From: Solirubrobacterales bacterium
GTDB lineage: Bacteria; Actinomycetota; Thermoleophilia; Solirubrobacterales; Solirubrobacteraceae
Reading direction: 5' to 3'
NCBI GenBank assembly: GCA_003132505.1
Contig: PKXY01000005.1
Span: 16,555-80,554, forward strand
DNA: 64,000 nt
Below, piece after piece: positions 56,074 to 56,192 of this stretch; positions within the stretch are counted from its first letter, which is position 1, and every line of letters begins with the position of its first letter. The position numbers and the translations under genes are program-made. Below the pieces are notes generated by a model. That model had not been told where the DNA came from. It ran no database searches and was given only the letters and a program-made list of their open reading frames with translations.

Positions 56074-56079
56074 TACACT
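56074..56079 (+). promoter_or_regulatory. -10-like box of the serC transcript
   Basis: TACACT. Transcription would begin near 56086, at the first bases of the riboswitch P1 stem. No strong -35 seen. Confidence 0.45.
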
Positions 56080-56085
56080 CCCGCG

Positions 56086-56165
56086 TACCGTCACGACTGG
56101 CGTCTGGGTGGAATTGACCACCGGGAAGTGACGGGTCGCAAGATTGCCGCGCGCCTGGGCACCTC
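56086..56165 (+). promoter_or_regulatory. ZTP/ZMP riboswitch (pfl motif) upstream of serC
   Basis: P1 is CCGTCAC (56088-56094)/GTGACGG (56128-56134), 7 perfect pairs. Then comes the conserved GACTGGCG (56095-56102). P2 is GGTGG (56107-56111)/CCACC (56118-56122), followed by GGGAA. After a linker, P3 is TGCC (56145-56148)/GGCA (56158-56161) with the conserved GCGCCTG loop. GGCG (56099-56102) can pair with CGCC (56152-56155), the pfl pseudoknot. All elements are in consensus order. The class senses ZTP/ZMP, a sign of low 10-formyl-THF. CCTC (56162-56165) could cover the serC GAGG ribosome site (inference). Confidence 0.88.
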
Positions 56166-56192
56166 TGCACTTCGAGTCCACGAGGAAATCCC

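Follow-up and report, generated by a model that had tools for sequence, protein, structure and literature searches.

The ZTP (pfl) riboswitch is a known sensor of one-carbon or folate shortage. Validation of the ZTP/ZMP riboswitch class is credited to Kim et al. 2015 in PMC7266159. In the transcriptional ZMP ON switch of Thermosinus carboxydivorans, P3 nucleotides pair with sequence further downstream unless a ligand-bound pseudoknot holds them (PMC7337938). A link to serine has been predicted in Bacillus and Oceanobacillus, where tandem ZTP/glycine riboswitches lie before the gene that starts the path from 3-phosphoglycerate to serine (PMC9481103), and an orphan riboswitch candidate, the serC motif (RF00517), precedes serC-serA (PMC7266159, PMC3766115). 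In the literature searched, to which the gene tables of Kim et al. 2015 did not belong, serC is not named as a ZTP target.

The leader RNA described here precedes serC in a 64-kb stretch of DNA (the window). It carries the same aptamer as the validated class in every scored feature and shares with it the theme of one-carbon supply for purines, but the target is serC and the expression platform is apparently translational rather than a terminator. The genes downstream of RF00517 are the same as in the window, whereas the RNA is a different one, and RF00517 gave no match at its gathering score in the window. As in the Bacillus and Oceanobacillus tandem, ZTP is predicted to turn on serine synthesis, which would feed 10-formyl-THF, and the reasoning behind that prediction, that serine feeds one-carbon units, is also the one given in an initial annotation of this locus; in contrast to the tandem, however, there is here a single aptamer with no glycine aptamer, the gene is the second of the pathway, serC, and the organism belongs to Thermoleophilia. 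What is new is the target and the lineage of a known riboswitch class; no new class is involved, and the definition of the ZTP riboswitch is unchanged by the finding.

The RF01750 (ZMP-ZTP) covariance model matched the + strand at 56083-56167 over its full length (model positions 1-86 of 86) and scored 61.5 bits, where the gathering threshold is 39, with an E-value of 1.5e-7 for the 64-kb window searched against all Rfam families and of 1.5e-9 at whole-genome scale. No other Rfam family reached its gathering threshold in the window, and the RF01750 scan of the genome that contains the window (2.75 Mb in 45 contigs, about 91% complete) found no second ZTP element. The features of the locus are as follows.

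56074-56079, + strand: -10 element TACACT with conserved TANNNT spacing and no recognisable -35
56083-56167, + strand: ZTP/ZMP (pfl) riboswitch aptamer, RF01750, the sole match in the genome
56088-56094, + strand: 5′ strand of P1, CCGUCAC, pairing over 7 bp with 56128-56134
56095-56102, + strand: GACTGGCG, read in the sequence directly after the 5′ strand of P1
56099-56102, + strand: J1/2 pseudoknot strand GGCG, pairing with CGCC at 56152-56155 and invariant in 48/48 serC leaders
56108-56121, + strand: P2 hairpin GUGG-loop-CCAC (strands 56108-56111 and 56118-56121), from the Rfam alignment, 100% of cells paired
56123-56127, + strand: GGGAA, read in the sequence
56128-56134, + strand: 3′ strand of P1, GUGACGG (GTGACGG in the DNA), partner of 56088-56094
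56145-56161, + strand: P3 hairpin UGCC/GGCA (strands 56145-56148 and 56158-56161) with the CGCC pseudoknot loop at 56152-56155, from the Rfam alignment
56156-56165, + strand: predicted anti-Shine-Dalgarno arm, UGGG (3′ strand of P3) plus CCUC, from the minimum free energy fold without the pseudoknot
56182-56193, + strand: Shine-Dalgarno GAGG (56182-56185), spacer, and CCCA up to the A of the start codon, a segment that the predicted ligand-free fold sequesters
56193-57338, + strand: serC, phosphoserine aminotransferase (serC_3), TIGR01366 with 599.8 bits (cut-off 401.65)
57442-59073, + strand: serA, phosphoglycerate dehydrogenase, TIGR01327 with 595 bits

Between 56074 and 56192 the RNA thus runs in the order TACACT, P1, GACUGGCG, P2, GGGAA, P3 with its CGCC loop, CCUC and GAGG, followed by the serC ATG. 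The initial annotation had read this order as a ZTP riboswitch with all pfl parts in place and had named the Rfam covariance search as the decisive check; each of the parts it listed can be read in the sequence, and the score lies well above the gathering value. P1 with nested P2, the J1/2 segment ACUGGCG and the GGGAA/GGGGA segments are all present in the leader. Judged by these features, the serC leader RNA is a genuine ZTP (pfl) riboswitch, and its ligand would, from the identity of the family, be ZMP/ZTP. In the Rfam alignment the outer P1 pairs and the outermost P3 pair of the window aptamer are mismatched and ligand binding is a prediction, as might be expected of a degenerate aptamer that has lost or changed its ligand sensing and is kept as a folded leader. 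Such a relic is nevertheless very improbable given that the nearly invariant positions of the ZTP aptamer are present in the window copy, that the match scores as high as it does and that P1 shows pairing selection in relatives.

The last point comes from an alignment of 48 distinct serC leaders. Standard pairs fill 94.5% of the pair cells, and pairing falls to 39-56% when the partners are slid by one to three columns. Double changes are seen in six pairs, as compared to 2.7 expected from shuffles, and in 26 cells as compared to 8.2, and none of 500 shuffles reached 26. The covariation support comes mostly from P1, where five of the seven pairs have changed on both sides and 97% of the helix cells are paired; substitutions of this kind indicate that P1 is under selection for pairing in the relatives. 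P2 and the pseudoknot hardly vary across the set, which is consistent with pairing but adds no covariation. The three inner pairs of P3 are retained in all 48 leaders, its outermost pair is formed in 5 of 48, and A15-G21 (in the numbering of the first alignment row) is invariant. The relatives were also checked for loss of the CGCC/GGCG pairing, and none was seen: both strands are identical in 48/48 serC leaders. As both pseudoknot strands were part of the pattern used to collect the leaders, this figure shows that the pairing is widespread but does not show that every leader retains it.

Conservation extends upstream of the aptamer. A TANNNT motif stands 18-23 nt 5′ of the ACTGGCG core in all 48 non-redundant serC leaders and in none of the 48 adjacent upstream stretches, and in the leaders of glyA genes it occupies that site in 35/36 cases against 0/36 upstream; the consensus of the -10 region is CGCTAnacTc. 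A consensus scan of the window for a sigma-70 -35/-10 pair found none. From the usual distance between a -10 element and the start, transcription would begin at about 56085-56087, right at P1, as the initial annotation had placed it.

The aptamer ends 25 nt before the serC ATG (56193), in a locus ordered ilvC, a 189-aa ORF, riboswitch, serC, serA and, further on, leuA. The 189-aa ORF (55502-56071) matches no Pfam or NCBIfam family. That serC is the controlled gene, as had been proposed, is supported by its TIGR01366 match and by the recurrence of the arrangement across the family. Among 21 ZTP-serC loci of relatives examined for serA, a few of which are the same species sampled twice, serA lies directly 3′ of serC in 18 and about 2 kb further on in one more, so serA may belong to the regulated locus too. 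The 103-bp gap between the two genes in the window (57339-57441) contains a perfect hairpin, AGCCGCCC-TTT-GGGCGGCT, as well as another one; with such strong hairpins, the serC transcript may end or be attenuated there.

RF01750 was found in 60 of 249 sampled genomes of the class Thermoleophilia and in 96 of 146 of the window's family, a family of soil actinobacteria. Behind non-identical ZTP leaders, collected in Thermoleophilia and mostly in Solirubrobacterales, the next gene is serC in 76 cases, which provides the comparison with other Thermoleophilia serC leaders that had been suggested, glyA in 48, a formate-dehydrogenase-type gene in 13, purH in five and serA in four, with no gene assigned in two. 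ZTP-serC loci occur in Solirubrobacter phytolaccae and Conexibacter sp. S30A1, and further ones in three Solirubrobacteraceae or Solirubrobacterales bins and in one 'Actinomycetes bacterium' bin. On the serC strand upstream of about 70 serC genes of Mycobacterium, Nocardia, Pseudonocardia, Gordonia and others, no aptamer pattern was found, the pattern being so strict that a degenerate copy could escape it. Two pattern matches near serC in other actinomycetes were rejected as lying on the opposite strand, too short and misplaced.

With respect to the mechanism, the initial annotation had pictured a translational switch between P3/CCTC and the GAGG ribosome site. In the predicted apo fold of 56083-56204, computed without the pseudoknot, P1 and P2 are kept and P3 dissolves; UGGG (56156-56159) pairs with CCCA (56190-56193), CCUC (56162-56165) pairs with GAGG (56182-56185), and some bases of the pseudoknot loop pair with the region of the start codon. 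The Shine-Dalgarno sequence is therefore predicted to be sequestered, as had been supposed, but CCTC does not act as an alternative partner that changes places with P3. Right on identity and target, the earlier reading is probably right on mechanism as well. Including the UGGG strand, the sequestering hairpin is predicted at -11.2 kcal/mol, as opposed to -6.5 without it, and P3 alone at -5.0, so that the energy added by the pseudoknot and by ligand could shift the equilibrium.

In both relatives from the same genus that have the leader, CCUC/GAGG and UGGG/CCCA are kept and the spacers differ. Over 40 non-redundant serC leaders, pairing of the Shine-Dalgarno sequence with the linker is 0.76 versus 0.59 in composition-matched shuffles (z 4.6), and pairing of the P3 strand with the spacer is 0.66 versus 0.35 (z 7.1). 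When P3 is held in the model, pairing of the ribosome footprint in the window leader drops from 0.64 to 0.31, and in a comparison of full leaders the footprint is freed by 0.164 as against 0.106 in shuffles (sd 0.020). In the modelled bound state of the window leader, GAGG stays paired with CCUC (0.98) and only the spacer and the start codon are freed. When linkers are swapped among leaders, Shine-Dalgarno pairing falls only slightly for serC (z about 1.9) and is unaffected for glyA; since the exchange matters so little, the switch helix shows no clear covariation between cognate strands. The switch-fold signals are weaker in glyA leaders than in serC leaders. Two further lines were discarded as evidence, namely the folding energy of the leader, which is not unusual relative to shuffles (z -1.0), and the C-rich spacer, which is only modestly commoner than in serC genes without ZTP (a small control, n=19).

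Because linker exchange has little effect, the glyA signals are weaker and GAGG is still paired in the bound model, we grade a translational ON switch as the likely mechanism and not higher. For the locus as a whole we consider it quite probable that the serC mRNA begins with a ZTP/ZMP riboswitch which, as a translational ON switch, raises SerC, and possibly the serA product, when ZMP/ZTP builds up. RNA polymerase would start at the strongly conserved -10 box just before P1, and P1, P2 and P3 together with the GGCG/CGCC pseudoknot would form the aptamer, as the covariance score, covariation and conservation suggest. ZMP/ZTP would bind to it, given the identity of the family. In the folding prediction for the ligand-free state, the UGGG strand of P3 and CCUC would cover GAGG and the start codon, so that ribosomes are blocked. 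Once stabilised by ligand, P3 and the pseudoknot would reclaim UGGG and the loop with CGCC; the block would then be worth about -6.5 kcal/mol instead of about -11, and translation would be expected to rise. As the apo helix uses UGGG/CCCA and CCUC/GAGG together, ligand would directly remove only its outer half. ZMP/ZTP would build up, and serC be turned on, when 10-formyl-THF is short, and the extra serine would give extra one-carbon units via glycine hydroxymethyltransferase. As in T. carboxydivorans, a P3 strand is here predicted to pair downstream without ligand and to be kept from doing so by pseudoknot and ligand, but the downstream hairpin is a terminator in that switch, whereas the hairpin predicted in the window covers the ribosome site.

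The pairing that persists in the bound model could also be read the other way, as a switch that turns serC OFF, ligand-bound P3 leaving CCUC free to form a short CCUC/GAGG hairpin over the Shine-Dalgarno sequence. That hairpin is indeed still predicted with P3 held (-6.5 kcal/mol, Shine-Dalgarno pairing 0.98), and ZTP OFF switches have been predicted elsewhere, for example before moeA (PMC9481103). However, the CCUC/GAGG pairs are present in the unbound fold too, together with four further pairs that extend to the start codon, so that binding is expected to loosen the structure, and ON control is both usual for ZTP switches and in keeping with one-carbon supply; we regard OFF control as decidedly unlikely. 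Control of transcription, by a terminator or by Rho loading on the untranslated leader, is what the well-studied ZTP switches would lead one to expect (PMC7337938, PMC10085676), and a poorly translated C-rich leader could be exposed to Rho. Yet the gap between aptamer and ATG is just 25 nt, no intrinsic terminator (hairpin plus T run) was found in it, and the one site in the stretch that resembles a terminator lies 3′ of serC and is at chance level, so transcriptional control is unlikely here.

A translational ON switch on serC would add the second step of serine synthesis to the ZTP regulon, through a wiring that is found commonly across an entire bacterial family. For Solirubrobacterales more widely, we lean slightly towards the view that the ZTP alarmone acts chiefly on serine synthesis, by way of translational switches on serC (plus serA and glyA), and that, with the single element of the window genome controlling only this locus, folate stress would be met there by more serine and not through purine or folate genes. 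The leaders collected here form a large set for studying possible ZTP translational control, which is less covered than the transcriptional form in the literature searched.

A ZTP switch on the glyA gene of the window genome was considered and rejected, as that gene lacks the element. A relative from the same genus has two glyA genes that are about 50% identical, one of them under a ZTP leader, and the window genome holds only the counterpart of the other. In four loci of one genus (g17) it is serA, not serC, that immediately follows the aptamer, which means that the element has changed place among the genes of the serine pathway. In five loci of one family (f7) it precedes a single-function AICAR formyltransferase of the PRK07106 type and not the two-domain PurH, and in one genome with three ZTP elements, the element of locus L092 (at position 1512) has no recognised target directly downstream. 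The 13 leaders of the formate-dehydrogenase type, in family f9 of Thermoleophilia, lie up to about 80 nt before an ORF for a large formate-dehydrogenase-like protein in which GltD-like and NuoG-like parts are fused to FdhA; no mention of such a ZTP target was found in the literature searched. In the five of these loci that were read, the ORF meets a TGA in frame where selenocysteine is expected (NVDHCART-TGA-HAPTVAG), and formate from this protein could feed 10-formyl-THF.
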